Part shown: positions 1 to 59,814 of the stretch, piece after piece
Numbering within the stretch: the stretch's first letter is position 1
How the letters are laid out: every line of letters starts with the position of its first letter
From: Ianthella basta
Lineage: Eukaryota > Porifera > Demospongiae > Verongiida > Ianthellidae
Reading direction: 5' to 3'
DNA: 64,000 nt
Assembly (NCBI GenBank): GCA_964019415.1
Contig: OZ025870.1
Coordinates: 8,709,915-8,773,914, forward strand
Program-made: the position numbers and the translations under genes
The notes under the pieces: model-generated
Told to the model about the DNA's origin: nothing
The model's input: the letters and a program-made list of their open reading frames with translations, nothing else
Databases searched by the model: none

Positions 1-1457
1 GTTGCTAATTCTGTTTGAAGTTTTGTAGCTACCAGTCTCTCTCTTGTTCCCTCCCTCCATCTATGTGTATGGTGCACTCATGGCCTCTCATACCCCTCTC
101 AGACTGGAGGTGCCACCATATGTTGTCACAATTAAGTTCATGATCTAATGGCTGATCTTCTCGCCAATGTCTGCCATGACGTCAATGTGGAGCCCCGCTT
201 GCAACCCCTTTCCAGTGAAATATTTTTCACCTGTAGCACAGCAACAGAAGACAACTCAAGGCTAGACATTGCAGCAAGTGGATTCTGCTGTGGAAGATTG
301 AGAGAGCATCTTTCAACGTAAGGGTAATTAACCTTTTTGTCCCCTCAAACCAAACACCACAGATGACCTCTTGCTACCGACGCCTCAAGCATAAGAAGAG
401 GCAGAAGTACGATCAGTGAGTTTGAGAAGTTGAACACGCATCCTTTGTCCCACTGGTGATGTCCTGCACTGGAGGAGCAAGTCCCAGTGCAACTGTATTT
501 CTCAAATGGCTCAACGTACTGTCGTCAGAGAAGAACCCTATCAACTACAGCACGGTCATAGAACTCTTGAGATTCTACCTCAGCCTCGCACTACTGCGTA
601 TCTCGATCATGTGTTTCCACAGTAGCAGATCATCTGCATGCCACCCAAAATGACTTGAACTAGGGATTGCAGATCTGGCCATGACAGAGGGCCAGATCAG
701 ACGATGCTAACTATCTAAACTGTCTTCACAAGCATTCGCCATTATCAATATTTACTGTTATTGTTATAATTGTGTATGTTGTTGCAATGGATTCTTTATT
801 TTGGTTTACTTGTTGCCTATGTGTGTATTATATAAATATTTGATTGTTTGCATGATTTGATTGTAAACATCTGATTGTTTTAATGATCATCGCAATATGT
901 ATATTATATGAAGTCCATGCCATGTGACAGAATTTCAATTTTAAAGTGTATAATAATATGTGACATCTCCATGTCCATACACATAGAAGATTTTCCCATC
1001 ATATTCAAATTCTATGACAGCTATCAAGTAGGCCTGCCTGATTGAATGCAAATGCAAATGGCAGAACATGCTACATTACAAACGCGTATTTCGCCAAAAG
1101 TTTAGCGCGCAGCAGAACAGGCTCTGTATCACCTAGTTCTACACTCCCTTGGCTATCACACAAGACATAGCTCACTGGCGGGAAAACCCGCAGAACTACG
1201 CTACGAGCCATTTAATAACGCGACGATTAGTCGATATTTTCACACTGGGAAAGAGTAAGCCACAAGTTTGAATGCAAATACCGCTTACATTTGGTCACCT
1301 CTATCCATGCAAAGGGTTTCACTTTCCTTGCATGAGTTTTCGTGCAGTAAAGGGGAGAGATTCCTTTGCATAGCTTTCCTCGAGAAAAACTCGTGCGCCC
1401 TTCTGGTTTCCAAACCAAACCTAAGCTGCCGCCATTTATATATGCGAAACAGCCGTG
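1..1457. mobile_element. Right portion of an identical TIR element (left part outside window)
   Basis: It is identical to 7347-8803. It ends in CGAAACAGCCGTG followed by the target copy AGTA at 1458-1461, then the normal cassette intron sequence. Confidence 0.75.
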
Positions 1458-2154
1458 AGTATATGGCAAAGCAATCTTGTGTCTTCTTGGCTTTGGTCTT
1501 TGTAGCTGCTAGATCATGCTTGTATCCTGTGCATCATTGGAAATAGAACACTTTCTGTGTGGACTTTGAAGTGCATATACCTGTGATGGAATGTGTGTTT
1601 GACATGTGTTGTACAATACGTATTGACTGGCATTTATATATCACCAATGTGTTATTTTAACTGTGCAATCTGTAAAGGTAGCCTGGTGACTTGTGCAACT
1701 TGCACTTCCTCGTTCATCCTTCCAATGACTCTAGCTACATATATTTCTAGAATTTCCTACAAACCCCTCTGCATTCTCACATCACTAGCAATTGTCTCAA
1801 CCAGATTACTGATCGCATCTACCTGCTTTATTGAATGATCGTCTAATTTTGTTCACACTTCTCTTATTGTCTTGGCACTCTCAGGATTTCAGTCATTTTC
1901 CATTCCACTTTCTACTCCAGACTCCAAAGTGTTTAAGTTATTACCAAGCATTCATAGACTGCATGCTCTGAAGCACCTCTGCTGAATCTGCCATTACTAC
2001 CTCATTCTGCACTCTATGCTACAAGTAGCATGGGATGCAGATACGGCCTTCCTATCTCAGATGTTCTCTTCCGTGGTAAATTTAATGGAACGTCGTACCC
2101 TGCACATGTAGTCAGTTGATTGAGTGTTAGTCTTATTCCTTTTTGTCTCTGCAG

Positions 2155-2906
2155 AATGGCTGCAATGCCTTTCACTTGTGTGCTGATGGTGGCAATGTTC
2201 CTATTGCTCAGTTCCTTGCCCCCATAATGGAGGACCACTTATTTGATTTGAGTGATGGTGGCTACACAGCCTTGCATTGGGCAGCTCAATCTGGTCAACT
2301 GTCCATGGTGGAGTACTTGGTGAAATCTTGTGGATTTGACTTGAAAGCAAAGGACAAGGTTGGCCTACATTAAATATTTCCTTTGTGTCTGGTCTGTTTT
2401 CTACCTCTCCTGTTTGCTACCTCTGGGCCTTCTGTTTCTGCATGGACGTGGCATAAACGAAGGATGTGATCCTTGATTGTGCTTTAGTTTTGTTTATGTA
2501 TTGCAAGGTCATTGTGTGATTATAGGACTAATTATCACATGTAATACTGCAGAGGCTCGTAGTTAGTTCGTATTTGTGACAACAATGTCTTTCAAGTTCA
2601 AGCGAGCTGAATTTTGACCATTCACTGACAGTAACTGTTGCGTTCCTGCTCATTACATGATTGCCAATGTGTAAATTGCACATGTACCGAGTAGAATACA
2701 ATCTCGAGTATTGACAGACCTGTTGTTGTAATGTTGCACCTTTATACATGTCACACACTATAAGGCATCACCTGGTATCATATTCCATTGCTTCCTTTAA
2801 TGAACAGTGGGGCAAGACGCCCCTTTTGACAGCAGTGCTCAGTGGTCATACTGATGTAGCTTGCTTCTTACTGGAGAGTGGCAGTGATGTCCATGAACAG
2901 GACAAT
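2155..2906 (+). CDS. Ankyrin cassette 1 (type a): exons 2155-2358 and 2808-2906
   Basis: Exon A (204 nt, 68 aa) opens NGCNAFHLCADGGNVPIAQF after gtctctgcag and ends KAKDK before gttggc. Exon B (99 nt, 33 aa) is exactly one ankyrin repeat, WGKTPLLTAVLSGHTDVACF..., between tgaacag and gtgagta. Both exons are phase 0 at both ends. The exons match cassette 4, and the only exon change in cassette 7 is one D-to-H substitution. Confidence 0.8.
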
Positions 2907-5900
2907 GTGAGTATTTGGTAAAGCAATCTTATGGCCTCTTGGTATTGGTCTTTGCAGTTGCTAGATCATGCTTGTATCCTGTGCATCATTGGAAATAGAA
3001 CACTTTCTGTGTGGACTTTGAAGTGTATATACCTGTGATGGAATGTGTGTTTGACATGTGTTGTACAATACGTATTGACTGGCATTTATATGTCACCATC
3101 ATGTTATTTTAACCGTGCAATCTGTAAAGGTAGCCTGGTGACTTGCGCAACTGGCACTGCCTCGTTCATCCTTCCAGTGACTCTAGCTACGTATATTTCT
3201 AGAATTTCCTAGGAACCCCTGTACATTCTCACATCACTAGCAATTGTCTCAACCAGATTACTGATCGCATCTACCTGCTTTATTGAAAGATCGTCTAATT
3301 TAGTTCACACTCCTCTTATTGTCTTGGCACTCTCAGGATTTCAATCATTTTCCATTCCACTTTCTGCTCCAGACTCCAAAGTGTTTAAGTTATTACCAAA
3401 CATTCATAGACTGCATGCTCTGGAGCACCTCTGCTGAATCTGCCATTTATACCTCATTCTGCACTCTATGCTACAAGTAGCATGGGATGCAGATACGGCC
3501 TTCCTATCTCAAATGTTCTCCTCCGTGGTAAATTTAATGGAACGTCCTGCCCTGCACATGTAGTCAGTTGATAGAGTGTTAGTCTTATTCCTTTTTGTCT
3601 CTGCAGAATGGCTGCAATGCCTTTCACTTGTGTGCTGATGGTGGCAATGTTGCCATTGCTCAGTTTCTTGCCCCCATGATGGAGGACCACCTATTTGATT
3701 TGAGTGATGGTGGCTACACAGCCTTCCACTGGGCAGCTCAATCTGGTCAACTGTCCATGGTGGAGTACTTGGTGAAATCTTGTGGATTTGACTTGAAAGC
3801 AAAGGACAAGGTTGGCCTACTTTAAATATTTCCTTGTTGTCTGGTCTGTTTTCTACCTCTCCTGTTTTCTACCTCTCTGGGCCTTCTGTTTCTGCATGGA
3901 CGTGGCATAAACGAAGGATGTGATACTTGATTGTGCTTTAGTTTTGTTTATGTATTGCAAGTTCATTGTGTGATTATATGACTAATTATCACATGTAATA
4001 CTGCAGAGGCTCATAGTTAGTTCGTATTTGTGACAACAATGTCTTTCAAGTTTAAGCAAGCTGAATTTTGACCATTCACTGACAGTAACTGTTGTGTTCC
4101 TGCTCAGTACATGATTGCCAATGTGTAAATTGCACATGTACCGAGTAGAATACAGTCTTGGGTATTGACAGACCTGTGGTTGTAATGGTGCACCTTTATA
4201 CATGTCACACACTGTAAGGCATCACCTGGTGTCATATTCCATTGCTTCCCTTAATGAACAGTGGGGCAGGACTCCTTTTTTGAGAGCAGTGCTCAGTGGT
4301 CATGCTGATGTAGCTCGCTTCTTACTGGAGAGTGGCAGTGATGTCCATGAACAGGACAATGTGAGTATGGTAGAGCAACCTTGTGTCTTCTTGGTTTTGG
4401 TCTTTGTAGTTGCTAGATCATGCTTGTATCCTCTGCATCATTGGAAATAGAACACATTCTTTGTGGACTTTGAAGTGTATATACCTGTGATGAAATGTGT
4501 GTTTGACATGTGTTGTACAATACGTATCGACTGGCATTTATATGTCACCAATGTGTTATTTTAACTGTGCAATCTGTAAAGGTAGCCTGGTGACTTGTGC
4601 AACTTGCACTTCCTCGTTCATCCTTCCAGTGACTCTAGCTACGTATATTTCTAGAATTTCCTACGAACCCCTCTGCATTCTCACATTATTAGCAATTGTC
4701 TCAACCAGATTCCTTATTGCATGTACCTGCTTTATTGAATGATCGTCTAATTTAGTTCACACTCCCCTTATTGTCCTGGCACTCTCAGGATTTTAGTCAT
4801 TTTCCATTCCACTTTCTGCTCCAAACTCCAAAGTGTTTAAGTTATTAGAGAGTTTAGGATTCCCGTATACGCCTAACCTCAAACGTCCGTGTGACGTCAC
4901 CACGTTACACGTTCACGTACACATAGGCGTGGAAGAAAAGTAACTTTAGATTGTCATGTAAAGAAGTACGTACGTACGACGAGATTACAGGATCTAAATG
5001 TTATAATGGAGGCAAAACTCAGATTTGTTTAGCCGTAAACTGCACTGGTAGAAGCGGCACACATTCGTCTTTCCATTCCAAGGAAGTCTGGAAGCCGAGA
5101 CCACATACGAAAATAGCAGCCCCGACTCTTGAGTCAACAGCGACGAAAACGACTTGAACGTTTTGCTGGTCAATTAGCAACGTCTTGCCAAGGCACTGGC
5201 TACCTGATTGGAGGCATCCAGCGTGAAATCCTGCAAGAAAAAGGCTAGGAACAATGTAGTTAGGGCAAGACTTACCATCTCTCATATAACGCAGTTGTAC
5301 TCTGCGAAAGACTTAGGATCCCACGTAAATGGCATTCGAATAGCTGCACAAGATGTTATTCTACACAATTCAACTCACAAAACGGCAAACAAGCAAAGAA
5401 GAGCGAAAAGCGCAGCAACCAAAATCCTAACGGCTAGCAAGGGGTCTAGCCGTTAAAAACGTTGCAGGCATACGTGAGAGCTAATGTGAACGTGGGATCA
5501 CGTGATATTTTAGTGACGTTTCATGACGTTTTCACGTTTGACGTTAGGCGTAAACGGCAATCTTAAACTCTCTATTACCAAACATTCATAGACTGCATGC
5601 TCTGAAGCACCTCTGCTGAATCTGCCATTACTACCTCATTCTGCACTCTATGCTACAAGTAGCATGGGATGCAGATACGGCCTTCCTATCTCATATGTTC
5701 TCTACCATGGCAATTTTAATGGAATGTCCTGCCCTGCACATGTAGTCAGTTGATAGAGGGTTAGTCTTATTCTTTTTTGTCTCTGCAGAATGGCTGCAAT
5801 GCCTTTCACTTGTGTGCTGGTGGTGGCAATGTTGCCATTGCTCAGTTTCTTGCCCCCATGATGAAGGACCACCTATTTGATTTGAGTGATGGTGGCTACA

Positions 5901-8900
5901 CAGCCTTGCATTGGGCAGCTCAATCTGGTCAACTGTCCATGGTGGAGTACTTGGTTGAAATCTTGTGGATTTGACTTGAAAGCAAAGGATAAGGTTGGCC
6001 TACTTTAGATATTTCCTCGTTCTCTGGTCTGTTTTCTACCTCTCCTGTATGCTACCTCTCCGGACCTTCTGTTTCTGCATGGACGTGGCATAAACGAAAG
6101 ATATGATACGTACTTGATTGTGCTTTAGTTTTGTTCATGTATTGCAAGTTCATTGTGTGGTTTTAGGACTAATTATCAAATGTAATACTGCCGAGGCGCA
6201 TAGTTAGTTCGTATTTGTGACAACAATGTCTTTCAAGTTTAAGCAAGCTGAATTTTGACCATTCACTGACAGTAACTGTTACGTTCCTGCTCAGTTCATG
6301 ATTGCCAATGTGTAAATTGCGAAAATACTAAGTAAAATACAGTCTCGAGTATTGACAGACCTGTGGTTGTAATGTTGCGCCTTTATACATGTCACACACT
6401 GTAAGGCATCACCTGGTGTCATATTCCATTGCTTCCCTTAATGAACAGTGGGGCAGGACTCCTTTTTTGAGAGCAGTGCTCAGTGGTCATGCTGATGTAG
6501 CTCGCTTCTTACTGGAGAGTGGCAGTGATGTCCATGAACAGGACAATGTGAGTACACGGCTGTTTCGAGGCGGCAACTTAGTTTTCCGAAATGGAAAATT
6601 GGGAATGGGAATGGGTATACGTGTACAACGACTGTCGTCGATGTCGGCCAGTTACTGCCTTTCCCCCAGGCCATCTTCGCTGCCAAGGAGGCCGGAACTC
6701 TGCATCTGGTTAGATCTGACCAAGTAAAGGTGAGCTGTGCTTTAAAAATTGTGGAACATGGCTTTACGTTACGAAACTAGCCAGTTTCCCCGCAAAGGTT
6801 AAAATGGCTCGTAGCGTAGTTCTGCGGGTTTTCCCGCCAGTGAGCTATGTCTTGTGTGATAGCCAAGGGAGTGTAGAGCTAGGCGATACAGAGCCTGTTC
6901 TGCTGCGCGCTAAACTTTTGGCGAAATACGCGTTTGTAATGTAGCATGTTCTGCCATTTGCATTTGCCTTGCGCAATTATCATATTAGCTATGCACACTA
7001 ACTTTCTCACATTTCCACAGTCAACTCCATGAAATTTACATTAATCTGTACATGTGCAGATCAAGTTTGCTCTTCATGTATATGTAGCCACATGTTTAGC
7101 TGTGCAGCAGCCAGTACAGCAGTTAGCTATGTGTGTAGCTGCCGTTGCTTCTTGAAATCAAAGATGGCATAGCTAAGCAACTGAGCTAGCTAATTTTTGT
7201 TTGTAAATGCTGACAGCATGACATATGTAAATGACACAATCAGGCAATCAGCATGTAACTGTGGAAAATGCAGATGTTCAAAATACATGAGTATTAATGA
7301 ATACAGCTATGTTTCATAGTAGGGTAGTCAGTTCTAAAATACATAAGTTGCTAATTCTGTTTGAAGTTTTGTAGCTACCAGTCTCTCTCTTGTTCCCTCC
7401 CTCCATCTATGTGTATGGTGCACTCATGGCCTCTCATACCCCTCTCAGACTGGAGGTGCCACCATATGTTGTCACAATTAAGTTCATGATCTAATGGCTG
7501 ATCTTCTCGCCAATGTCTGCCATGACGTCAATGTGGAGCCCCGCTTGCAACCCCTTTCCAGTGAAATATTTTTCACCTGTAGCACAGCAACAGAAGACAA
7601 CTCAAGGCTAGACATTGCAGCAAGTGGATTCTGCTGTGGAAGATTGAGAGAGCATCTTTCAACGTAAGGGTAATTAACCTTTTTGTCCCCTCAAACCAAA
7701 CACCACAGATGACCTCTTGCTACCGACGCCTCAAGCATAAGAAGAGGCAGAAGTACGATCAGTGAGTTTGAGAAGTTGAACACGCATCCTTTGTCCCACT
7801 GGTGATGTCCTGCACTGGAGGAGCAAGTCCCAGTGCAACTGTATTTCTCAAATGGCTCAACGTACTGTCGTCAGAGAAGAACCCTATCAACTACAGCACG
7901 GTCATAGAACTCTTGAGATTCTACCTCAGCCTCGCACTACTGCGTATCTCGATCATGTGTTTCCACAGTAGCAGATCATCTGCATGCCACCCAAAATGAC
8001 TTGAACTAGGGATTGCAGATCTGGCCATGACAGAGGGCCAGATCAGACGATGCTAACTATCTAAACTGTCTTCACAAGCATTCGCCATTATCAATATTTA
8101 CTGTTATTGTTATAATTGTGTATGTTGTTGCAATGGATTCTTTATTTTGGTTTACTTGTTGCCTATGTGTGTATTATATAAATATTTGATTGTTTGCATG
8201 ATTTGATTGTAAACATCTGATTGTTTTAATGATCATCGCAATATGTATATTATATGAAGTCCATGCCATGTGACAGAATTTCAATTTTAAAGTGTATAAT
8301 AATATGTGACATCTCCATGTCCATACACATAGAAGATTTTCCCATCATATTCAAATTCTATGACAGCTATCAAGTAGGCCTGCCTGATTGAATGCAAATG
8401 CAAATGGCAGAACATGCTACATTACAAACGCGTATTTCGCCAAAAGTTTAGCGCGCAGCAGAACAGGCTCTGTATCACCTAGTTCTACACTCCCTTGGCT
8501 ATCACACAAGACATAGCTCACTGGCGGGAAAACCCGCAGAACTACGCTACGAGCCATTTAATAACGCGACGATTAGTCGATATTTTCACACTGGGAAAGA
8601 GTAAGCCACAAGTTTGAATGCAAATACCGCTTACATTTGGTCACCTCTATCCATGCAAAGGGTTTCACTTTCCTTGCATGAGTTTTCGTGCAGTAAAGGG
8701 GAGAGATTCCTTTGCATAGCTTTCCTCGAGAAAAACTCGTGCGCCCTTCTGGTTTCCAAACCAAACCTAAGCTGCCGCCATTTATATATGCGAAACAGCC
8801 GTGAGTATATGGCAAAGCAATCTTGTGTCTTCTTGGCTTTGGTCTTTGTAGCTGCTAGATCATGCTTGTATCCTGTGCATCATTGGAAATAGAACACTTT

Positions 8901-11900
8901 CTGTGTGGACTTTGAAGTGCATATACCTGTGATGGAATGTGTGTTTGACATGTGTTGTACAATACGTATTGACTGGCATTTATATATCACCAATGTGTTA
9001 TTTTAACTGTGCAATCTGTAAAGGTAGCCTGGTGACTTGTGCAACTTGCACTTCCTCGTTCATCCTTCCAATGACTCTAGCTACATATATTTCTAGAATT
9101 TCCTACAAACCCCTCTGCATTCTCACATCACTAGCAATTGTCTCAACCAGATTACTGATCGCATCTACCTGCTTTATTGAATGATCGTCTAATTTTGTTC
9201 ACACTTCTCTTATTGTCTTGGCACTCTCAGGATTTCAGTCATTTTCCATTCCACTTTCTACTCCAGACTCCAAAGTGTTTAAGTTATTACCAAGCATTCA
9301 TAGACTGCATGCTCTGAAGCACCTCTGCTGAATCTGCCATTACTACCTCATTCTGCACTCTATGCTACAAGTAGCATGGGATGCAGATACGGCCTTCCTA
9401 TCTCAGATGTTCTCTTCCGTGGTAAATTTAATGGAACGTCGTACCCTGCACATGTAGTCAGTTGATTGAGTGTTAGTCTTATTCCTTTTTGTCTCTGCAG
9501 AATGGCTGCAATGCCTTTCACTTGTGTGCTGATGGTGGCAATGTTCCTATTGCTCAGTTCCTTGCCCCCATAATGGAGGACCACTTATTTGATTTGAGTG
9601 ATGGTGGCTACACAGCCTTGCATTGGGCAGCTCAATCTGGTCAACTGTCCATGGTGGAGTACTTGGTGAAATCTTGTGGATTTGACTTGAAAGCAAAGGA
9701 CAAGGTTGGCCTACATTAAATATTTCCTTTGTGTCTGGTCTGTTTTCTACCTCTCCTGTTTGCTACCTCTGGGCCTTCTGTTTCTGCATGGACGTGGCAT
9801 AAACGAAGGATGTGATCCTTGATTGTGCTTTAGTTTTGTTTATGTATTGCAAGGTCATTGTGTGATTATAGGACTAATTATCACATGTAATACTGCAGAG
9901 GCTCGTAGTTAGTTCGTATTTGTGACAACAATGTCTTTCAAGTTCAAGCGAGCTGAATTTTGACCATTCACTGACAGTAACTGTTGCGTTCCTGCTCATT
10001 ACATGATTGCCAATGTGTAAATTGCACATGTACCGAGTAGAATACAATCTCGAGTATTGACAGACCTGTTGTTGTAATGTTGCACCTTTATACATGTCAC
10101 ACACTATAAGGCATCACCTGGTATCATATTCCATTGCTTCCTTTAATGAACAGTGGGGCAAGACGCCCCTTTTGACAGCAGTGCTCAGTGGTCATACTGA
10201 TGTAGCTTGCTTCTTACTGGAGAGTGGCAGTGATGTCCATGAACAGGACAATGTGAGTATTTGGTAAAGCAATCTTATGGCCTCTTGGTATTGGTCTTTG
10301 CAGTTGCTAGATCATGCTTGTATCCTGTGCATCATTGGAAATAGAACACTTTCTGTGTGGACTTTGAAGTGTATATACCTGTGATGGAATGTGTGTTTGA
10401 CATGTGTTGTACAATACGTATTGACTGGCATTTATATGTCACCATCATGTTATTTTAACCGTGCAATCTGTAAAGGTAGCCTGGTGACTTGCGCAACTGG
10501 CACTGCCTCGTTCATCCTTCCAGTGACTCTAGCTACGTATATTTCTAGAATTTCCTAGGAACCCCTGTACATTCTCACATCACTAGCAATTGTCTCAACC
10601 AGATTACTGATCGCATCTACCTGCTTTATTGAAAGATCGTCTAATTTAGTTCACACTCCTCTTATTGTCTTGGCACTCTCAGGATTTCAATCATTTTCCA
10701 TTCCACTTTCTGCTCCAGACTCCAAAGTGTTTAAGTTATTACCAAACATTCATAGACTGCATGCTCTGGAGCACCTCTGCTGAATCTGCCATTTATACCT
10801 CATTCTGCACTCTATGCTACAAGTAGCATGGGATGCAGATACGGCCTTCCTATCTCAAATGTTCTCCTCCGTGGTAAATTTAATGGAACGTCCTGCCCTG
10901 CACATGTAGTCAGTTGATAGAGTGTTAGTCTTATTCCTTTTTGTCTCTGCAGAATGGCTGCAATGCCTTTCACTTGTGTGCTGATGGTGGCAATGTTGCC
11001 ATTGCTCAGTTTCTTGCCCCCATGATGGAGGACCACCTATTTGATTTGAGTGATGGTGGCTACACAGCCTTCCACTGGGCAGCTCAATCTGGTCAACTGT
11101 CCATGGTGGAGTACTTGGTGAAATCTTGTGGATTTGACTTGAAAGCAAAGGACAAGGTTGGCCTACTTTAAATATTTCCTTGTTGTCTGGTCTGTTTTCT
11201 ACCTCTCCTGTTTTCTACCTCTCTGGGCCTTCTGTTTCTGCATGGACGTGGCATAAACGAAGGATGTGATACTTGATTGTGCTTTAGTTTTGTTTATGTA
11301 TTGCAAGTTCATTGTGTGATTATATGACTAATTATCACATGTAATACTGCAGAGGCTCATAGTTAGTTCGTATTTGTGACAACAATGTCTTTCAAGTTTA
11401 AGCAAGCTGAATTTTGACCATTCACTGACAGTAACTGTTGTGTTCCTGCTCAGTACATGATTGCCAATGTGTAAATTGCACATGTACCGAGTAGAATACA
11501 GTCTTGGGTATTGACAGACCTGTGGTTGTAATGGTGCACCTTTATACATGTCACACACTGTAAGGCATCACCTGGTGTCATATTCCATTGCTTCCCTTAA
11601 TGAACAGTGGGGCAGGACTCCTTTTTTGAGAGCAGTGCTCAGTGGTCATGCTGATGTAGCTCGCTTCTTACTGGAGAGTGGCAGTGATGTCCATGAACAG
11701 GACAATGTGAGTATGGTAGAGCAACCTTGTGTCTTCTTGGTTTTGGTCTTTGTAGTTGCTAGATCATGCTTGTATCCTCTGCATCATTGGAAATAGAACA
11801 CATTCTTTGTGGACTTTGAAGTGTATATACCTGTGATGAAATGTGTGTTTGACATGTGTTGTACAATACGTATCGACTGGCATTTATATGTCACCAATGT

Positions 11901-14900
11901 GTTATTTTAACTGTGCAATCTGTAAAGGTAGCCTGGTGACTTGTGCAACTTGCACTTCCTCGTTCATCCTTCCAGTGACTCTAGCTACGTATATTTCTAG
12001 AATTTCCTACGAACCCCTCTGCATTCTCACATTATTAGCAATTGTCTCAACCAGATTCCTTATTGCATGTACCTGCTTTATTGAATGATCGTCTAATTTA
12101 GTTCACACTCCCCTTATTGTCCTGGCACTCTCAGGATTTTAGTCATTTTCCATTCCACTTTCTGCTCCAAACTCCAAAGTGTTTAAGTTATTAGAGAGTT
12201 TAGGATTCCCGTATACGCCTAACCTCAAACGTCCGTGTGACGTCACCACGTTACACGTTCACGTACACATAGGCGTGGAAGAAAAGTAACTTTAGATTGT
12301 CATGTAAAGAAGTACGTACGTACGACGAGATTACAGGATCTAAATGTTATAATGGAGGCAAAACTCAGATTTGTTTAGCCGTAAACTGCACTGGTAGAAG
12401 CGGCACACATTCGTCTTTCCATTCCAAGGAAGTCTGGAAGCCGAGACCACATACGAAAATAGCAGCCCCGACTCTTGAGTCAACAGCGACGAAAACGACT
12501 TGAACGTTTTGCTGGTCAATTAGCAACGTCTTGCCAAGGCACTGGCTACCTGATTGGAGGCATCCAGCGTGAAATCCTGCAAGAAAAAGGCTAGGAACAA
12601 TGTAGTTAGGGCAAGACTTACCATCTCTCATATAACGCAGTTGTACTCTGCGAAAGACTTAGGATCCCACGTAAATGGCATTCGAATAGCTGCACAAGAT
12701 GTTATTCTACACAATTCAACTCACAAAACGGCAAACAAGCAAAGAAGAGCGAAAAGCGCAGCAACCAAAATCCTAACGGCTAGCAAGGGGTCTAGCCGTT
12801 AAAAACGTTGCAGGCATACGTGAGAGCTAATGTGAACGTGGGATCACGTGATATTTTAGTGACGTTTCATGACGTTTTCACGTTTGACGTTAGGCGTAAA
12901 CGGCAATCTTAAACTCTCTATTACCAAACATTCATAGACTGCATGCTCTGAAGCACCTCTGCTGAATCTGCCATTACTACCTCATTCTGCACTCTATGCT
13001 ACAAGTAGCATGGGATGCAGATACGGCCTTCCTATCTCATATGTTCTCTACCATGGCAATTTTAATGGAATGTCCTGCCCTGCACATGTAGTCAGTTGAT
13101 AGAGGGTTAGTCTTATTCTTTTTTGTCTCTGCAGAATGGCTGCAATGCCTTTCACTTGTGTGCTGGTGGTGGCAATGTTGCCATTGCTCAGTTTCTTGCC
13201 CCCATGATGAAGGACCACCTATTTGATTTGAGTGATGGTGGCTACACAGCCTTGCATTGGGCAGCTCAATCTGGTCAACTGTCCATGGTGGAGTACTTGG
13301 TGAAATCTTGTGGATTTGACTTGAAAGCAAAGGATAAGGTTGGCCTACTTTAGATATTTCCTCGTTCTCTGGTCTGTTTTCTACCTCTCCTGTATGCTAC
13401 CTCTCCGGACCTTCTGTTTCTGCATGGACGTGGCATAAACGAAAGATATGATACGTACTTGATTGTGCTTTAGTTTTGTTCATGTATTGCAAGTTCATTG
13501 TGTGGTTTTAGGACTAATTATCAAATGTAATACTGCCGAGGCGCATAGTTAGTTCGTATTTGTGACAACAATGTCTTTCAAGTTTAAGCAAGCTGAATTT
13601 TGACCATTCACTGACAGTAACTGTTACGTTCCTGCTCAGTTCATGATTGCCAATGTGTAAATTGCGAAAATACTAAGTAAAATACAGTCTCGAGTATTGA
13701 CAGACCTGTGGTTGTAATGTTGCGCCTTTATACATGTCACACACTGTAAGGCATCACCTGGTGTCATATTCCATTGCTTCCCTTAATGAACAGTGGGGCA
13801 GGACTCCTTTTTTGAGAGCAGTGCTCAGTGGTCATGCTGATGTAGCTCGCTTCTTACTGGAGAGTGGCAGTGATGTCCATGAACAGGACAATGTGAGTAT
13901 ATGGCAAAGCAATCTTGTGTCTTCTTGGCTTTGGTCTTTGTAGCTGCTAGATCATGCTTGTATCCTGTGCATCATTGGAAATAGAACACTTTCTGTGTGG
14001 ACTTTGAAGTGCATATACCTGTGATGGAAGGTGTGTTTGACATGTGTTGTACAATACGTATTGACTGGCATGTATATATCACCAATGTGTTATTTTAACT
14101 GTGCAATCTGTAAAGGTAGCCTGGTGACTTGTGCAACTTGCACTTCCTCGTTCATCCTTCCAATGACTCTAGCTACGTATATTTCTAGAATTTCCTACAA
14201 ACCCCTCTGCATTCTCACATCACTAGCAATTGTCTCAACCAGATTACTGATCGCATCTACCTGCTTTATTGAATGATCGTCTAATTTTGTTCACACTCCT
14301 CTTATTGTCTTGGCACTCTCAGGATTTCAGTCATTTTCCATTCCACTTTCTACTCCAGACTCCAAAGTGTTTAAGTTATTACCAAGCATTCATAGACTGC
14401 ATGCTCTGAAGCACCTCTGCTGAATCTGCCATTACTACCTCATTCTGCACTCTATGCTACAAGTAGCATGGGATGCAGATACGGCCTTCCTATCTCAGAT
14501 GTTCTCTTCCGTGGTAAATTTAATGGAACATCGTACCCTGCACATGTAGTCAGTTGATTGAGTGTTAGTCTTATTCCTTTTTGTCTCTGCAGAATGGCTG
14601 CAATGCCTTTCACTTGTGTGCTGATGGTGGCAATGTTCCTATTGCTCAGTTCCTTGCCCCCATAATGGAGGACCACTTATTTGATTTGAGTGATGGTGGC
14701 TACACAGCCTTGCATTGGGCAGCTCAATCTGGTCAACTGTCCATGGTGGAGTACTTGGTGAAATCTTGTGGATTTGACTTGAAAGCAAAGCACAAGGTTG
14801 GCCTACATTAAATATTTCCTTTGTGTCTGGTCTGTTTTCTACCTCTCCTGTTTGCTACCTCTGGGCCTTCTGTTTCTGCATGGACGTGGCATAAACGAAG

Positions 14901-17900
14901 GATGTGATCCTTGATTGTGCTTTAGTTTTGTTTATGTATTGCAAGGTCATTGTGTGATTATAGGACTAATTATCACATGTAATACTGCAGAGGCTCGTAG
15001 TTAGTTCGTATTTGTGACAACAATGTCTTTCAAGTTCAAGCGAGCTGAATTTTGACCATTCACTGACAGTAACTGTTGTGTTCCTGCTCATTACATGATT
15101 GCCAATGTGTAAATTGCACATGTACCGAGTAGAATACAATCTCGAGTATTGACAGACCTGTTGTTGTAATGTTGCACCTTTATACATGTCACACACTATA
15201 AGGCATCACCTGGTATCATATTCCATTGCTTCTTTTAATGAACAGTGGGGCAAGACGCCCCTTTTGACAGCAGTGCTCAGTGGTCATACTGATGTAGCTT
15301 GCTTCTTACTGGAGAGTGGCAGTGATGTCCATGAACAGGACAATGTGAGTATTTGGTAAAGCAATCTTATGGCCTCTTGGTATTGGTCTTTGTAGTTGCT
15401 AGATCATGCTCGTATCCTGTGCATCATTAGAAATAGAACACTTTCTGTGTGGACTTTGAAGTGTATATACCTGTGATGGAATGTGTGTTTGACATGTGTT
15501 GTACAATACGTATTGACTGGCATTTATATGTCACCATTGTGTTATTTTAATTGTGCAAGCTGTAAAGGTAGCCTGGTGACTTGCGCAATTTGCACTTCCT
15601 CGTTCATCCTTCCAGTGACTCTAGCTACGTATATTTCTAGAATTTCCTAGGAACCCCTGTACATTCTCACATCACTAGTAATTGTCTCAACCAGATTACT
15701 GATCGCATCTACCTGCTTTATTGAATGATTGTCTAATTTATTTCACACTCCCCTTATTGTCTTGGCACTCTCAGGATTTCAGTCATTTTCCATTCCACTT
15801 TCTACTCCAGACTCCAAAGTGTTTAAGTTATTACCAAACATTCATAGACTGCATGCTCTGAAGCACCTCTGTTGAATCTGCCATTAATACATCATTCTGC
15901 ACTCTATGCTACAAGTAGCATGGGATGCAGATACCGCCTTCCTATCTCAAATGTTCTCTTCTGTGGTAATTTTAATGGAATGTCCTGCGCTGCACATGTA
16001 GTCAGTTGATAGAGTGTTAGTCTTATTCCTTTTTGTCTCTGCAGAATGGCTGCAATGCCTTTCACTTGTGTGCTGATGGTGGCAATGTTGCCATTGCTCA
16101 GTTCCTTGCCCCCATGATGGAGGACCACCTATTTGATTTGAGTGATGGTGGCTACACAGCCTTGCATTGGGCAGCTCAATCTGGTCAACTGTCCATGGTG
16201 GAGCATTTGGTGAAATCTTATGGATTTGATTTGAAAGCAAAGGACAAGGTTGGCCTACTTTAAATGTTTTCTCATTGTCTGGTCCATTTTCTACCTCTCC
16301 GGGCCTTCTGTTTCTGCATGGACATGTCATAAACAAAAGATGTGATACTTGATTGTTCTTGTAGTTCTATGTATTGCAAGTTCATCGTGTGATCTAAATG
16401 GCACATGTAACACTGCACAGGCTCATAGTTTGTCCATATTTATAACCTGTTAAGTCTCTCAATTGTCAATAGTTCCAAATTATCATCGTGTAAATTATAT
16501 ATGTATGTACCAAGTAGAATGTAGGCTTGTGTATTGCCAGACCTGTGGTTGTAATGTTGCACCTTTATACATGTCACACACTGTAAAGCATCAGCTGGTA
16601 TCATGTTCAATGCTTCCCTTAATCAACAGTGGGGCTATACACCCCTTTTGAGGGCAGTGGCCGGGGGTCATGCTGATGTTGTTCGATTCTTACTGGATTG
16701 TGGCACTGATGTCCTTGGACAGACTAATGTGAGTGCGTCAGAGCAACGCTGTGTCTTGCATTGCATGTTGTCTGCATTTAGTCCTGTATTGTTGTGATTT
16801 CCTTGTGACCTGTGCCCATTGATAATAGAATAATTCTTCTAATGTGGACTTGAAAGTGTATCTATATAATGTCTATGTAATGTGTGTATATGTAATATGA
16901 CAACTGTATCATGTCACCAAGCAACAGCCCAGGTTAATATATGCACCTCGGTCCCAAATATTGCCTATTTAACTCTCTACCATACTCTACATAAAATTAA
17001 TGTAGTGTAGTGATTGTGTGGTGGTATGTACCTTCTTTAGTAATGGAGAGCACAGGCTGAAGTTCCACTTGAGAGAGGTGGCCATTTGCATTAGACAAGA
17101 GCCTAATGCAAATGGCCACCAAGCAACTTGAGGCCTAAGGCGCAAAGCACCCAAGGACAAGAGCTGCCTATGCATCATATCGCACACTAAGAAGACTATA
17201 CCTGTTATATTCCCTTTACTATGGCTTCCCTGGCCTTTCTGGTGGGTCACGGGCTCCTTTAAGCACCTTCTCTTCTGGTGGGAGACCATAGCTAGCTGCT
17301 GCGAGGATGGGCTCCATCAATCTCGGTTGCTTTTGCCTATGTCGTGGCGATTTTATTGACTACTCTTTCCTCGACGTTGACAAGCGCTCTAAATGTCGTA
17401 GCAAGTACAGAAAGGAAGAACATGCCTCCAAAGGGCAAAAAGAAGCTAACTCTTGGGGACATTGGAAATTCCAGCCACTTCCAGTTTGTTTCTAAGAAAG
17501 ATGCTGAAGCATCACAGCAGAGGTATGTTCTGCCAAATACTGAGAAATCGACAAAGTGAGCCATGAAGGTTTTGGCTGACTGGAGCAGACGCAGCAGCTC
17601 GTGGGTGAAGTATGCTGCCCAGAACATTTGCTCAAACAAGCAGACCCTAGCCATCTGTCCAAGTGGTTGTCTCTGCTCGCTGTTGAAGCCAGGCAGGCCA
17701 GTGGCCATTTCTATTACGTAGCTAGCAGAAAGTCTTGGCTATGCTATGGAGGGTCCTCCAGAAATAACAACACAGACAGAGTTTGACCAACTTCTGGAGG
17801 ACTCTCCATAGGATAGCTAAGATATTCTGCTAGTTCTAGTAACTGCTATAACAAACTTTTACTAAAGCAATGTTTGTACCTTTTGCTATTTTACTGCATG

Positions 17901-20073
17901 TGGACTTGTTGCGTATAATGAAATTCATGACATTATGATGGCATTTTTGTGGTTTGACATGTGCGGAATATGACCCTTGACCTGTGCTGACCCCTCATAT
18001 ATGCACAGGTCAAGTCAGCAGCCCTGGGCTCTTAACGTATAATTATGAAAATTATCACGGTACCATTGCCATAGTAATGGGAATATTACAACTATCTGAA
18101 TATCTGCTGATGTATTAATTCACATGATTACATAATCACCATTCTATCTATTTCTTGAGTGCTATATAAATTACATCTCACACTTGAATTGGATATATTC
18201 ATTGCACACATTAATATTAAGTGGCACATATCCACTGTCATTCTTCACCCTCACTTATGCATGGCACTGTTATTACTGAAAGATGTAGCATCTCTGCTGT
18301 TACCCTTGTTGCTCTACATGCCACACTGTATGGTTTGCTAGTTTGTATTGACATTCTGAAGGAAGCTACTGATTGGAATGTGTACACATATTGCACCTGG
18401 TAGCTTCAAGCAACAACACACCCCTAGTGATCAGTGACTGCATGCTTGTGTCTTTCTTCATGCGTTGTTCTATTCTAGTTCTTTTACTATCCTTCTCTTC
18501 TCCTGGACCATTGTTTGAATAGCTTTGTGCATTGATTTGGAAAAATCCCTGAGTATAGCGTGTGTTCATTTCACTTTGTGAAATCGGATATATTTTCCTG
18601 TCAATTTAACCATGTATTTGTGTAAGTATAAGGGGTGCATGTTTAAATGTGTCTATTTCTGTCTAATAATTCTTGTTTCCCGGCTACATAATGGGACTTC
18701 TCGTTTTAAGTTGATTGCAGGTGGAATTTGACAGTCAAGTACCTAAGGGGGCTTTCTACATCTCACACAACATTTTTTTTAGATTTTGCTATAGTTCTAC
18801 AGCTAATGCTCCACTCCACTCATACTTTTCCCTTTCTGTCGGAATTGCACCAAAATAGGTTTAATCACCTATCCTATGTCAGATATACCTGTACCCAATC
18901 CAATCTGATAATCCAATGTTCCTGCATCCTAATGCACTTTAGATTGTTACACAGAGGGTATTTGTCAAAACTAGAGCCAAGTGCATGTGCTTCCTTCAGA
19001 GATATATATCCTGTGCACAGAGGTTCCATGCTGTTTGATAAAGTTGCAGCCTACTGTGCCATACATTTTTGTTGCAAATCCTTGTGCATTTTACTGCACT
19101 TGTTCCTCAGTCTCTGAATAACGTGATTATAATGCAACATTACAATTTATCATGTATTTTATGTGAATGCTCAATAGTATCAGCAATAGAACCAGATCTG
19201 AAGCTGACATACTCTCAAAACGTGCATCTATTCTGCCATGCTCATCTTGGAAAATTTGCCCATGATTGATTAGTGCTGAGCAACAGTACTTAAGCATCTC
19301 TTGTATCATGTACTATCATTACTGAACTGAGAATCGTCTCTATATTAGTTGTGGATTGAATTTAGTGGCGTTGTTTGTTTTCAATGTGTGATGATTGAAA
19401 TGACACTTTCTTCCTGAATGACAAGGCAATGCTACAGAAGTGCACACATTTCCTGCTTTCTAGCATCACATCTCCTCCAGATCTATTTTTACGATTCTAA
19501 GCCATTTTCCCTCTTCTGTCTGCCTGTACAGCAAGGGGAATATGCCCTCCAGATAGCTGTCAGGAAAGGGCACCTAGACATGGTCAAAATGCTCGTTCAA
19601 GTGTACCGAGAATTAAACTTGGACCACACTGTTGGCCAGTACCACATGGACCTTGCTGAAGATCACCATCATGAACATTTGGTGGAATACCTCTCAAGTG
19701 AATTCCCTATGCTGAAGAGAAAGGTGGGCTATGATATGCACATTTTTACTGTGTCAAATCAGCATGCCTATCTAGCTGTATAGGTGTACGTTAGGACTGA
19801 CCATTTGCTAGTTATCGTGCAACACTGTTTATAATGTTTACATTATGTAATTGTGTCGTTTCACCCCTATATCTGTGTGCTGTGACAAATATACATGCCA
19901 ATCTAGCTATAAAGGTGTTTGGATTGACCATGTGCTAGCTGTTGTGCAACACTGTTTTCGTTACATAATAATGTCATGTTCACCTCTATATCTGTGTTCA
20001 GGTACAAGTGCCACAACCGACTATGTATCTCGATGTGTGGTCTATATCTGGTGATCAGGACTACTGGCACTAA
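2155..20073 (+). CDS. Ankyrin-repeat protein, 3' part of gene (18 exons visible, 5' end outside window)
   Basis: The visible coding sequence is eight tandem exon pairs (2155-16728), then exons 19532-19723 and 20002-20073. Every exon begins and ends in phase 0. Each pair encodes about 101 residues, or three ankyrin repeats, with signatures such as GGYTALHWAAQSGQLSMVEY and WGRTPFLRAVLSGHADVARF. Exon boundaries fall at the D-N/G or D-K/G junction between repeats, so each exon is a whole repeat module. Acceptors are strong (tttttgtctctgcag). First-exon donors are the weak gttggc and second-exon donors are gtgagta. The protein would be a long ankyrin solenoid, presumably a protein-binding region. 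The N-terminal domains lie upstream of the window; by analogy with the gene at 43.7 kb they may be CARDs (inference). One cassette (5789-5993) carries a frameshift, so the gene as read is interrupted unless that exon is skipped. Confidence 0.75.
3607..4360 (+). CDS. Ankyrin cassette 2 (type b): exons 3607-3810 and 4262-4360
   Basis: This has the same design as cassette 1, 1452 bp downstream. Exon A reads NVAIAQFLAPMMEDH and GGYTAFHWAAQ (a leucine-to-phenylalanine change at the TALH motif). Exon B reads WGRTPFLRAVLSGHADVARF. Donors are gttggc and gtgagta. A 725-bp MITE lies in the following intron. Confidence 0.8.
4848..5572. mobile_element. 725-bp MITE, copy 1
   Basis: The ends are inverted: gagagtttaggattcccgta at the left and gagagtttaagattgccgtt on the complement of the right end, with about 38 bp of imperfect TIR. 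It is flanked by TATTA at 4843-4847 and 5573-5577. Removing 730 bp restores the 1452-bp cassette spacing. It has no transposase ORF. It contains a perfect internal hairpin taacggctag/ctagccgtta (about 5428-5455). Confidence 0.8.
5789..6547 (+). pseudogene. Ankyrin cassette 3 (type c): exon A frameshifted; exons 5789-5993 and 6449-6547
   Basis: Exon A is 205 nt instead of 204. One extra T near 5955 (tacttggttgaaatc versus tacttggtgaaatc in cassette 6) shifts the frame and produces a TGA about six codons later. Splice sites and exon B (6449-6547) are intact. Because exon A is phase 0-0, skipping it would restore the frame. A consensus error is possible, since cassette 6 is otherwise identical. 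Confidence 0.75.
6555..8803. mobile_element. 2.25-kb TIR DNA element inserted in ankyrin-gene intron
   Basis: The ends are the inverted 13-mer CACGGCTGTTTCG / CGAAACAGCCGTG, flanked by a 4-bp target duplication AGTA (6551-6554, 8804-8807). The intron after cassette 6 (gtgagtatatggc) is the uninterrupted site. A 166-bp inner inverted repeat (6802-6967 versus 8394-8559, 2 mismatches) contains TTTTCCCGCC. The approximately 245-bp outer arms have little similarity beyond their ends. Inside, 7405-8000 encodes broken remnants of a protein domain (separate entry). It appears non-autonomous. Confidence 0.75.
7405..8000 (+). pseudogene. Decayed retroelement-type C-terminal domain inside the TIR element
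   Basis: Three frames together give HDLMADLLANVCHDVNVEP, RLDIAASGF, SCYRRLKHKKRQKYDQ and EHASFVPLVMSCTGGA in order, with frameshifts and stops between. From memory this resembles the C-terminal part of a common metazoan transposon-associated protein (GG..IRHNE..DL, EDxARLDIAAxGF, YRRHExEK, EVEHxSFTPLVFSxTGG). The same remnant occurs at 59-654. The homology is recalled and not tested. Confidence 0.5.
9501..10252 (+). CDS. Ankyrin cassette 4 (type a): exons 9501-9704 and 10154-10252
   Basis: This is a copy of cassette 1 exactly 7346 bp downstream, with no difference in the encoded protein. Splice signals are the same and all boundaries are phase 0. It follows the 2.25-kb TIR element at 6555-8803. 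Confidence 0.8.
10953..11706 (+). CDS. Ankyrin cassette 5 (type b): exons 10953-11156 and 11608-11706
   Basis: This is a copy of cassette 2 exactly 7346 bp downstream, with the same encoded residues including TAFHWAAQ. It is followed by the second copy of the MITE (12194-12918). Confidence 0.8.
12194..12918. mobile_element. 725-bp MITE, copy 2
   Basis: This is the same element and same insertion site as 4848-5572, displaced by 7346 bp. It was therefore copied by the block duplication and not by transposition. Confidence 0.8.
13135..13892 (+). CDS. Ankyrin cassette 6 (type c): exons 13135-13338 and 13794-13892
   Basis: This is the intact 204-nt counterpart of the frameshifted cassette 3. Exon A reads HLCAGGGNVAIAQF and MMKDHLFDL. 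Exon B is identical to the type b exon B. The following intron begins gtgagtatatggc without the TIR element, so it is the empty site for the insertion at 6555. Confidence 0.8.
14593..15344 (+). CDS. Ankyrin cassette 7 (type a): exons 14593-14796 and 15246-15344
   Basis: It is very similar to cassettes 1 and 4. The main protein change is KAKHK for KAKDK at the end of exon A. Splice sites and phases are conserved. It shows that the a-b-c order continues past the two large blocks. Confidence 0.8.
16045..16728 (+). CDS. Ankyrin cassette 8 (type b-like, most diverged): exons 16045-16248 and 16630-16728
   Basis: Exon A is close to type b (MVEHLVKSYGFDLKAKDK). Exon B is clearly diverged: WGYTPLLRAVAGGHADVVRF then LLDCGTDVLGQTN. 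The intron between A and B is shorter and lower in similarity. This cassette looks like the oldest, outside the recent homogenisation. Confidence 0.78.
17422..17715 (+). pseudogene. Crypton/KIAA1958-like recombinase N-terminal fragment (decayed)
   Basis: Starting at ATG, the frame reads MPPKGKKKLTLGDI... then VLPNTEKSTK, a TGA where tryptophan is expected, and AMKVLADW. A shifted frame gives DPSHLSKWLSLLAVEARQAS. The order NTxKxTxWAxxVxxxW followed by Lxx(F/W)Lxx(F)xxEARxxxG recalls the N-terminal region of DUF3504/crypton-derived proteins. A stop and a frameshift disable it. The assignment is from memory. Confidence 0.4.
17721..17834. repeat. Palindrome with about 40-bp arms
   Basis: The left arm ctatggagggtcctccagaa (17744-17763) and right arm ttctggaggactctccatag (17792-17811) pair with few mismatches. 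Pairing extends outward to 17721 and 17834. The loop is 28 bp. It abuts the crypton-like fragment and may be a transposon end or a small foldback. Confidence 0.6.
19532..19723 (+). CDS. Penultimate ankyrin exon
   Basis: After the acceptor ctgcctgtacag the 64-codon exon reads GEYALQIAVRKGHLDMVKML and ends PMLKRK before gtgggc. The A-hxxA-xxxGHLDMVxxLL pattern is a diverged ankyrin repeat, unlike the cassette sequence. It is phase 0 at both ends. It lies 2.8 kb after cassette 8, across an intron holding a crypton-like fragment. Confidence 0.7.
20002..20073 (+). CDS. Probable terminal exon with stop codon
   Basis: A pyrimidine-rich acceptor (cacctctatatctgtgttcag) is followed in phase 0 by 23 codons beginning VQVPQPTMYLDVW and ending DYWH-TAA. 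The continuity of phase with the preceding exon and the stop just before LINE sequence favour a real last exon. I see no homology and no canonical AATAAA directly downstream. Confidence 0.45.
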   Translation, partial: VQVPQPTMYLDVWSISGDQDYWH

Positions 20074-20254
20074 TGTCATGTTGCATGTACTGTACATGTA
20101 TTGTAGAGGATGATGATGTACATTATTGCATGAATGGATCCAGTCAAAAACTTTATGCATTTTGAAACTGAGTTATCTCGAGCTCGAACTCGATATTAAT
20201 TTTGGTGCAGTTCTCAAGGTATAATACTACATAAACGATCATGAGATCCCTAAG

Positions 20255-21197
20255 ATGGCGGCAACCAAGAATTCGAAGAGTCAATCAAATAGATTGGAGA
20301 ATCAGCTGATGGAGACAAGCAAGATTACTAGAAAGAATACCCGATCGGTCAAAAAGAAGTCCGAAGTGATTGGTGAGAAGAAGGACGGGAGTTGTGAGGT
20401 GCCCCCTTCCGAAGAGAGTGAACGCGGTAGCGCCGGTGAGGTGCCATGTTTCTGTAACGACAACAGGGAGGCAGGTGAGATGGTGCAATGCGAGATGTGT
20501 ACAGGATGGTTCCATTTGGAGTGCTTAAGAATGAAAGAAGTTGTACATGTTGGTGTGCTGGATGGAAGGGCGTTTGTCTGTTGCTTCTGCCTGTCGGCGA
20601 AAGTGTTAGAGTTGACTAAGTTGGTAGGTGAGCTACGAGGGGAGATGATCGAGTTGAGAGAGTCTGTAGAGGTGTTGAGTAAAGAGAACAACGATCTGGT
20701 GGAGAGGGTGATGGTTGCGGAGGGTGAATGGAAGCGGGTAGAATGTAGGGGAAGATTGGAGGAGATGAGAAAGAAGCCTGTCTCTGCTGTCTCTGCTGCA
20801 TGCCCAGGGGGGGAGAAGGAATGAACAGGGGGATAGAGCAGATAGTGAAACGTTGCAGGGTGGTAAGAGTAGGTTGGGAGAGTCGCCATTATTGCCAGTA
20901 AAGAAGAACAAGCATGGGGAGTATGTTGGAGTAAGGAAACTGGGGGGGGGGACAAGGAAGAAAGTGTCAGTGGAGGAGGTCAAAGACTGTTTGGGGGAGA
21001 AATTTGATGAGGCAGAGAAAGTTGAGGTGGTCAGAGTGTGCAAGGAAGACAGTGGTAGGACACGGTGGTGGTTTTGGCTGAGAGGCGAGGAAGATGTGTT
21101 GGGAAGATTGGATAGAGTTGTGATCAATGATGTCTGGAAGGTGGAAAAGAAGTCTCCTTTTTTAGGGGTTGCATCAGTGAGGGTGCTCAGCCGCTGA
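20255..21197 (+). pseudogene. LINE 1 ORF1: PHD finger plus coiled coil (frameshifted)
   Basis: ATG follows gatccctaag. Residues 60-115 contain a PHD-type zinc finger: C-x-C (PCFCNDN), CEMCTGWFHLECL, then CCFC. A coiled-coil segment ELTKLVGELRGEMIELRESV follows. The frame shifts near 20815 in a G-rich run, and the rest (20853-21197) continues in another frame with basic residues. PHD fingers are known in ORF1 of some CR1/L2-type LINEs, where ORF1 is thought to bind RNA or chromatin. Confidence 0.7.
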
Positions 21198-21299
21198 AGT
21201 GGCAAAAGGGGATGGGTGATGAGGGCATGATGATGGAAGTTGGATCTAGTGTGGGTAGTGACGATACTTGTGGTGAGCTGGGTGTTGATTTTGATGTAA

Positions 21300-22165
21300 A
21301 TCTGAAGGTCATGTGCTGGAATGTATGTGGCTGGTCTAATATGAATGTTTGTCAATTTGGTACAGGCGTTGATCATACTGATATTAGATCTTTAGTTCTG
21401 AACCATTACAAGCCTGATGTGATCCTTCAAGCAACAAACCTAGCCTTTGCAGGGGCCTAACTGCAAGAGTCACTTTTGAACAAGCCTGATGTGATCGGTG
21501 TTGTTGAAAGCTGGTTACGTGGAGACGAGGAAGCCTCATTTGAGGGTTATAAGTGGTTTGGGAACAATAGGAAATCTATCCACAAGAGAGCAGTCCGTGG
21601 TTCTGGTGGGGTTGGAGTGCTTGTGAGAGAACCATTGTTAAGGTTTTGGTCGTGTGAGGTGTTGGACTGTGATGTTGAAGACATTGTGGGTGAAGCTCTC
21701 TAATGTGGCTAGTGGTTTAGACGTGGTGCTTGCAGTGTGTTACATCCCTCCCATGTCGTCTGGGAGAGAAGTATGCTTGGAGGGGAGGTTACAGTGCTTA
21801 TCTGAGCAAGTGAGTAAGTATGCTAGTCTTGGTACAGTACTTCTAGGTGGGGATTTTAATGCAAGGTGTGGCTGTGTAGAAGAGGTGGAAGGTTTAGGTG
21901 ATAGACAGTCAGAAGATCAGGTGACTAACGAGCAAGGCAGAGTGTTGCTAGATTTCACAAGGTCATTGGGGCTTTGTGTGGCCAATGGCAGAGCTGGGAG
22001 TGGTGACTTCACCTGCATTTCTTCTAAAGGGTGTTCAGTGGTGGACTATTGCTTGTTGTTCAAGTATGACCTCGGGGTTGTGTCAAACTTTAAGGTGGTA
22101 TCTTTGACTGGTTTGTCGAGGCATTCCATGCCGATGGTATTGTTGAACGAATTCCAGACCATTCT
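21300..22165 (+). pseudogene. LINE 1 apurinic-like endonuclease domain (broken)
   Basis: Motifs appear in order: LKVMCWNVCGW, PDVIGVVESWL (catalytic Glu), GGDFNARCG, VVDYCLL and SRHSMP (expected SDHxxI). The changed last motif, two frame changes and the internal insertion near 21425-21495 indicate loss of function. Confidence 0.7.
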
Positions 22166-22168
22166 GCT

Positions 22169-28270: not shown

Positions 28271-28284
28271 AATGAATGGGAATA

Positions 28285-28297
28285 ATTATTATTATTA

Positions 28298-28330
<33 letters not shown>
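28285..28330. repeat. (ATT)n microsatellite
   Basis: This is an interrupted ATT run directly upstream of the LINE 2 start. It creates a spurious upstream extension of the reading frame. Confidence 0.9.
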
Positions 28331-28331
<1 letters not shown>

Positions 28332-33665: not shown

Positions 33666-33758
33666 GAATGTTATTATTGTTATTATATTTAATGCCTTTA
33701 TGTATGACAAATTTATATTATACTGTTATGTTACAGTATTTTACTGTATGTCTATATT

Positions 33759-43710: not shown

Positions 43711-59814
<16,104 letters not shown>

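Follow-up and report, generated by a model that had tools for sequence, protein, structure and literature searches.

The 64-kb stretch of the Ianthella basta genome analysed here (the window; C3:8709915-8773914, on a eukaryotic contig) contains a tandem array of ankyrin-encoding exon pairs, and the whole array is larger than the window shows, comprising 14 cassettes over 26 kb from -9557 to 16728. Coordinates are window positions, negative ones lying upstream in the 50 kb of preceding DNA that was inspected, and genome searches covered 209 Mb in 96 contigs. On the best reading, this array would be the sensor part of one gene (the focal gene) in a tandem family of ~1 Mb, the fullest members of which appear to read CARD, CARD, orphan domain, ankyrin solenoid. 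Duplication has copied both single cassettes and blocks of two or three of them in their entirety, and the form of the exons is conserved while amino-acid change is concentrated at the positions of target contact. By sequence similarity, the CARD-like exons of the family have relatives in this genome that lie immediately ahead of NACHT exons. An initial annotation, made from the letters of the window, had described eight symmetric cassettes and interpreted them as a means of rapidly changing the binding surface of an immune-type receptor; the observation is confirmed, and the interpretation is partly supported.

Each cassette consists of a 204-nt exon encoding 68 residues (two ankyrin repeats) and a 99-nt exon encoding 33 residues (one repeat), and with its two introns measures ~1,452 bp. 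All eight pairs reported in the window are present with an AG acceptor and a GT donor at every exon, and their limits are in phase 0 and fall between ankyrin repeats. Membership in the ankyrin family is indicated by homologues of the cassettes that carry Ank domains and by the repeat period of ~33 residues in the exons; the best named ankyrin match is from Oscarella lobularis (33%). The proposal that any cassette could be gained, lost or skipped without a change of frame holds for the intact cassettes, which are 12 of the 14 in the whole array and seven of the eight in the window, and fails for the two that are frameshifted. Since the cassettes are tandem copies of each other, their phase-0 boundaries are not independent observations and chance is irrelevant to their form. 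Retention of this form across the gene family is more telling than the agreement of phase inside the array: among the exons of the cluster that were examined, 127 of 136 204-nt exons and all 53 99-nt exons have an open frame and carry AG and GT where these are expected, the exons having been located by similarity, from which strongly decayed ones would escape.

Identity between cassettes of the focal array across both exons and the intron between them (gaps ignored) ranges from 83.5 to 100%. Three sub-types recur as initially described, with a at 2155, 9501 and 14593, b at 3607, 10953 and -3739, and c at 5789, 13135 and -1557; on the same measure, identity is 99.6-100% within types and 92.7-95.5% between them. 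The eighth cassette in the window (16045) does not continue this order as a further b and is a separate terminal type, 83.5-86.6% identical to the 13 others. The complete array opens with one cassette, followed by an older two-cassette repeat (-9564 to -5405 versus -6654 to -2499, 94%) that overlaps the first b, by b-c-a three times and by the terminal-type cassette. At the protein level, no two of the 11 intact non-terminal cassettes share less than 85.1% identity, the range for the terminal one is 78.2-86.1%, and the 12 intact cassettes encode 10 distinct proteins. The identity of >85% by which highly internally conserved repeat receptors are recognised is found with the cassette as the unit; single repeats inside one cassette are less alike than whole cassettes are.

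Growth in three-cassette blocks, also part of the initial annotation, was borne out by near-identical copies of 7,346 bp, which represent the latest growth unit of the focal array. Between blocks 2 and 3 there is a single inserted base and no substitution across 5,099 aligned bases. The comparison of blocks 1 and 2 shows 83 differing columns within the first 1.5 kb, where block 1 consists of an older cassette, and four in the remaining ~5.85 kb. The blocks also differ in their mobile elements. A dispersed DNA transposon of 2,246 bp is present in blocks 1 and 2 and absent from block 3; scoring of 40 of 257 candidates gave at least 153 matching pieces across the genome. Read by eye, its ends are CGGCTGTTTCG and its 8-base target repeat is imperfect; judging by these ends we take it to be hAT-like. 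It is inserted directly behind the GTGAGTA of the intron, so that the donor site is preserved. A 725-bp element resembling a miniature inverted-repeat transposable element (MITE), with 39-bp terminal inverted repeats (by eye), is present in all three block copies. A separate gene for each cassette block was considered and ruled out, as splice sites match and phase 0 is kept throughout the exons, and as the dispersed transposon accounts for the additional 2.2 kb between blocks.

Exons outside the cassettes (CARD-like, orphan N-terminal domain [NTD], first two ankyrin and C-terminal) were placed by homology. In the focal gene, the NTD (-21122 to -20259) and two ankyrin exons precede the array, which is followed by a C-terminal exon that matches Ank families. 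The order in the next gene downstream is two CARD-like exons (CARDa and CARDb), NTD, the two ankyrin exons known from the focal gene, nine cassettes and a C-terminal exon; six of the nine cassettes are three copies of a pair (~4.86 kb) with identical exon sequences. Between 7.93 and 8.99 Mb, genome searches located 18 NTD exons and 21 C-terminal exons in a tandem arrangement of ~1 Mb. The number of 204-nt exons per NTD-headed gene ranges from 2 to 15, with 14 in the focal gene; these counts are lower bounds, as 150 of 2,889 candidates were scored, and they bear out a varying cassette number as a difference between paralogues. In 14 of the 18 genes, a CARD-like match (fragments included) lies in front of the NTD and behind the C-terminal exon of the preceding gene: ten have both CARDa and CARDb, four have CARDa only, and four, including the focal gene, have neither. 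The nearest relative of a 204-nt exon lies within the same gene in 55 of 127 cases, against 10.6 expected with shuffled labels. Elsewhere on the contig, the series of cassette matches of two family members, at C3:8.236-8.275 Mb and C3:8.555-8.590 Mb, correspond to each other with equal or similar scores and spacing, which suggests a segmental duplication of ~35 kb, and a minus-strand group of related cassettes is found at C3:6.976-7.011 Mb, ~1.7 Mb from the window.

The best PDB match of CARDb is the APAF1 CARD (E 0.0085), and its single-sequence model is helical with a mean predicted local distance difference test score (pLDDT) of only 50.8. For CARDa, the APAF1 CARD is the second PDB match and is not significant (E 0.13). 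Relatives of both exons elsewhere in the genome overlap Pfam CARD matches above cut-off, including C8:4185235 and C4:12125485 for CARDb and C18:6686443 and C3:2040474 for CARDa. Scoring of 102 of 469 candidates gave 102 NACHT matches; 17 of these have a CARDb relative on the same strand within 5 kb upstream, and none has one within 5 kb downstream. We consider CARDa and CARDb to be CARDs with good but not complete confidence. None of the 102 NACHT matches falls in C3:7.93-8.99 Mb; by this measure the cluster does not encode NLRs, and a NACHT domain between the CARD and the ankyrin exons was likewise looked for among these matches and not found.

The NTD matches no Pfam family above cut-off and, with a 15-sequence profile, no PDB entry, and its single-sequence fold (pLDDT 39.3) is too poor to name a domain. 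There are 110 matches to it in this genome, many far from the cluster, and its relatives in public records are 127 proteins, mostly from ENA (120 listed at 49-84% identity). The domain is therefore not private to this genome, and by sequence it represents a large unnamed domain family. A search for proteins of about 550-1750 residues with both CARD and NTD found none.

Variation at contact positions was analysed in the 136 cluster 204-nt exons, made up of 133 of the 150 listed matches and three from fetched DNA; seven plus-strand matches and 10 on the minus strand or on C4/C5 were left out. Nine of the 136 were dropped (two with the extra T described below, one with another frameshift, four without GT in place, one that has lost 9 bases in frame and one that touches masked bases), and removal of duplicates left 111 unique exons; 39 unique 99-nt exons were analysed alongside. 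As contact positions we used 2, 3, 5, 13, 14, 26 and 33 of the designed ankyrin repeat protein (DARPin) convention, mapped onto the exons. By parsimony, the ratio of nonsynonymous to synonymous change (dN/dS) was 0.89 at contact positions versus 0.29 elsewhere in the 204-nt exons (label permutation p 5e-5), and 2.29 versus 0.48 in the 99-nt exons (permutation p 0.008). A codon model gave an omega of 1.08 at contact positions, 1.43 at the core positions 3/5/13/14 and 0.36 elsewhere for the 204-nt exons, the non-contact remainder being far below 1, and 3.0, 3.2 and 0.585, respectively, for the 99-nt exons. Because the hot spots were known before the classes were fixed, the test was repeated on 68 unique exons fetched later, with omega 1.20 at contact and 1.53 at core positions versus 0.37 (permutation p = 5e-5), and the five most variable sites were all contact positions. 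These figures come from this one ankyrin family only, and recombination between cassettes can inflate omega. Within the focal array, silent divergence in the exons of the seven distinct non-terminal cassettes (0.066-0.125) is not below that of the introns (0.054-0.060).

Taken together, these data make it about an even chance that the cluster encodes a non-NLR, CARD-linked recognition family whose solenoid changes in length and surface as cassettes are duplicated and exchanged and residues substituted. Between cassettes ~94% identical, unequal exchange (or ectopic conversion) would lengthen or shorten the solenoid with the frame unbroken; recombination in the introns would be harmless to the reading frame because the exchanged unit is an intron-bounded, frame-neutral exon pair. 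Substitutions at contact residues, spread between copies, would change what the solenoid binds. The CARD, NTD and cassette exons are presumed to be joined in one transcript, and the proteins would be cytosolic, with CARD-bearing members signalling on binding. Members that lack CARDs, such as the focal gene, may be decoys, regulators, partners or decaying genes. More speculatively, the CARD-orphan domain-ankyrin arrangement could constitute a non-NLR class of animal immune receptor in which the ~18 tandem genes trade frame-neutral two-exon cassettes, internally and with one another, and the recognition solenoid is thereby rebuilt in the germ line, perhaps with single-exon skipping in addition, such that individuals would differ in sensor length and surface; we regard this fuller proposal as possible but rather unlikely.

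A number of observations weigh against a recognition family. The nearest relative of a 204-nt exon lies in another gene in 72 of 127 cases. The CARDs that the initial annotation placed in the neighbouring paralogue are there as two CARD-like exons, but these fall under the Pfam cut-offs (CARD_2 E 7.7e-4; CARD E 0.0094), and none of the 110 listed genome-wide Pfam CARD matches (150 of 367 candidates scored) lies in the cluster. The focal gene has no match to CARDa or CARDb between -36049 and -21122, a search that reached back to the last exon of the previous gene. In addition, cassette c of blocks 1 and 2 (-1557 and 5789) has an extra T in its 204-nt exon that brings in-frame stops; as far as the DNA shows, the sixth of the 14 cassettes interrupts the full-length frame unless this exon is skipped. 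These last two features would be expected of a focal gene that is null or decaying, makes no full-length protein and carries its recent block copies as neutral passengers. We treat this as a tentative alternative, as the frame is open in 12 of the 14 204-nt exons, in every one of the 14 99-nt exons, in the NTD and in the C-terminal stretch, and cassette c of block 3 (13135) is intact. Skipping of the frameshifted exon would also preserve frame and repeat register, because both flanking limits are in phase 0 and at repeat edges.

The codon-based test on exposed positions that the initial annotation had suggested yielded the excess at contact positions described above, but omega was not significantly above 1 in any contact class (p 0.06-0.20, 2 degrees of freedom [df]), nor in the 68 later exons (p 0.27 and 0.15, 2 df), and relaxed constraint therefore suffices to account for it. 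Contact positions are variable in ankyrin families generally. The newest block copies are protein-identical or one residue apart, so that recent growth altered the length of the solenoid rather than its chemistry; the initial interpretation is supported as to the concentration of variation at contact positions. Such a pattern could arise by ordinary repeat-protein evolution with no immune role, in an ankyrin scaffold family subject to unequal exchange and with contact positions merely unconstrained, and multi-domain duplication is known for ankyrins, nebulin and others (PMC1553488). This explanation is rather unlikely in view of the CARD-like exons near 14 of the 18 paralogues, with their relationship to exons just upstream of NACHT exons, and of the strongly unequal numbers of 204-nt exons among 18 tandem genes. 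An assembly error, giving a wrong copy number or haplotypes strung together, would fit the lack of substitutions between blocks 2 and 3, which differ by one base and one transposon, but is improbable for a 13.4-Mb contig that is free of N across the window and the 50 kb before it, in which the three copies are told apart by the transposon, the frameshift and a few substitutions and the array holds further duplications that are older and have diverged.

Features located in the window are listed in Table 1. Between the two ankyrin genes, reverse transcriptase frames of LINE (long interspersed element) type that match RVT_1 above cut-off are found at 25350-28376 (-), 23299-24438 (+), 31201-32253 (+) and 53076-53687 (+). 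GC skew is strongly positive at 20001-24000 (0.389) versus -0.08 to 0.19 in the other 4-kb windows, and a reverse transcriptase frame begins at 23299. An open stretch at 41486-41815 (+) matches the initiation factor 2B family (E 1.6e-17) and is apparently an unrelated gene directly ahead of the CARD-bearing paralogue. A 277-bp stretch occurs at 33758-34034 and 35287-35563, 1.5 kb apart, with 100% identity. No RNA families or tRNAs were found in the 64-kb window.

Table 1. Features of the ankyrin cassette array and of the downstream paralogue, in window positions.
Feature	Position	Strand	Remarks
7,346-bp block, one copy	1455..8800		phase arbitrary; next copy from 8801, without transposon and frameshift
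Cassette a copy 1, 204-nt exon	2155..2358	+	two ankyrin repeats; AG/GT, phase 0
Cassette a copy 1, 99-nt exon	2808..2906	+	one ankyrin repeat
Cassette b, 204-nt exon	3607..3810	+	
Cassette b, 99-nt exon	4262..4360	+	
MITE-like element, 725 bp	4848..5572		TATTA at both ends; intron before cassette c
Cassette c, 205-nt exon	5789..5993	+	one extra T, stops; same change at -1557, not at 13135
Cassette c, 99-nt exon	6449..6547	+	open
Dispersed DNA transposon, 2,246 bp	6555..8800		begins after seventh intron base behind cassette c
Cassette a copy 2, 204-nt exon	9501..9704	+	
Cassette a copy 2, 99-nt exon	10154..10252	+	
Cassette b next copy, 204-nt exon	10953..11156	+	
Cassette b next copy, 99-nt exon	11608..11706	+	
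Cassette c intact copy, 204-nt exon	13135..13338	+	
Cassette c intact copy, 99-nt exon	13794..13892	+	
Cassette a copy 3, 204-nt exon	14593..14796	+	
Cassette a copy 3, 99-nt exon	15246..15344	+	
Terminal-type cassette, 204-nt exon	16045..16248	+	
Terminal-type cassette, 99-nt exon	16630..16728	+	
C-terminal ankyrin-like exon, focal gene	19535..19723	+	limits by homology; also behind paralogue arrays
CARD-like stretch CARDa, downstream paralogue	43711..44091	+	limits by homology
CARD-like stretch CARDb, downstream paralogue	47119..47442	+	limits by homology
Orphan N-terminal domain (NTD), downstream paralogue	51317..52180	+	
First ankyrin exon, downstream paralogue	58693..58800	+	limits by homology
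Second ankyrin exon, downstream paralogue	59716..59814	+	limits by homology; nine cassettes past window end

A word search of the open-access literature did not find the same arrangement, which is no proof of its absence. In one sponge genome, 20 CARD-NACHT-LRR genes are reported (PMC12909245), and the present family resembles these sponge NLRs in its large expansion and in the N-terminal CARD or CARD-like domain of most paralogues; unlike them, it has an orphan domain where no NACHT was found, and its sensor is ankyrin. Ankyrin- and CARD-bearing genes were up-regulated after exposure to microbial patterns in two sponges (PMC6208332). As in nebulin, several exons and repeats have been copied as a higher-order unit, although the exon borders of nebulin lie inside domains and the cassette borders here fall at repeat edges in phase 0 (PMC1553488). 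The closest analogue in gene structure is kringle IV type 2 (KIV-2) of human LPA, a 5.5-kb two-exon cassette present in 1 to >40 copies among people (PMC4378929); in both, a multi-kilobase unit of exactly two exons with their two introns is repeated in tandem within a single gene, but the LPA unit encodes a kringle rather than ankyrin repeats, and copy number here was read from one genome.

The closest working analogue is provided by the fungal NLRs with highly internally conserved ANK, TPR or WD repeats, such as Podospora het-d/het-e and the ANK NLRs, which show polymorphism of repeat number and selection on the concave face, ANK repeats included (PMC4986451, PMC12222747). The sponge family shares with them near-identical units, similarity within and between genes, differences in unit number and variation on the predicted ligand face. 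It differs in being an animal family with no NACHT found in the cluster, with CARD-like instead of fungal effector domains, and with an intron-bearing exon pair encoding three repeats as the unit; moreover, positive selection and number polymorphism are features of the fungal NLRs, and what is seen here are differences between paralogues of one genome. Among the genes of that one genome, with 2 to 15 204-nt exons apiece, there are nonetheless many natural variants of length and of contact face, so that the link between solenoid length, surface and binding is directly testable. If the reading of the cluster as a recognition family is true, an animal lineage would have reached the strategy of fungal allorecognition, in which near-identical units are freely exchanged and diversity is limited to the contact face.

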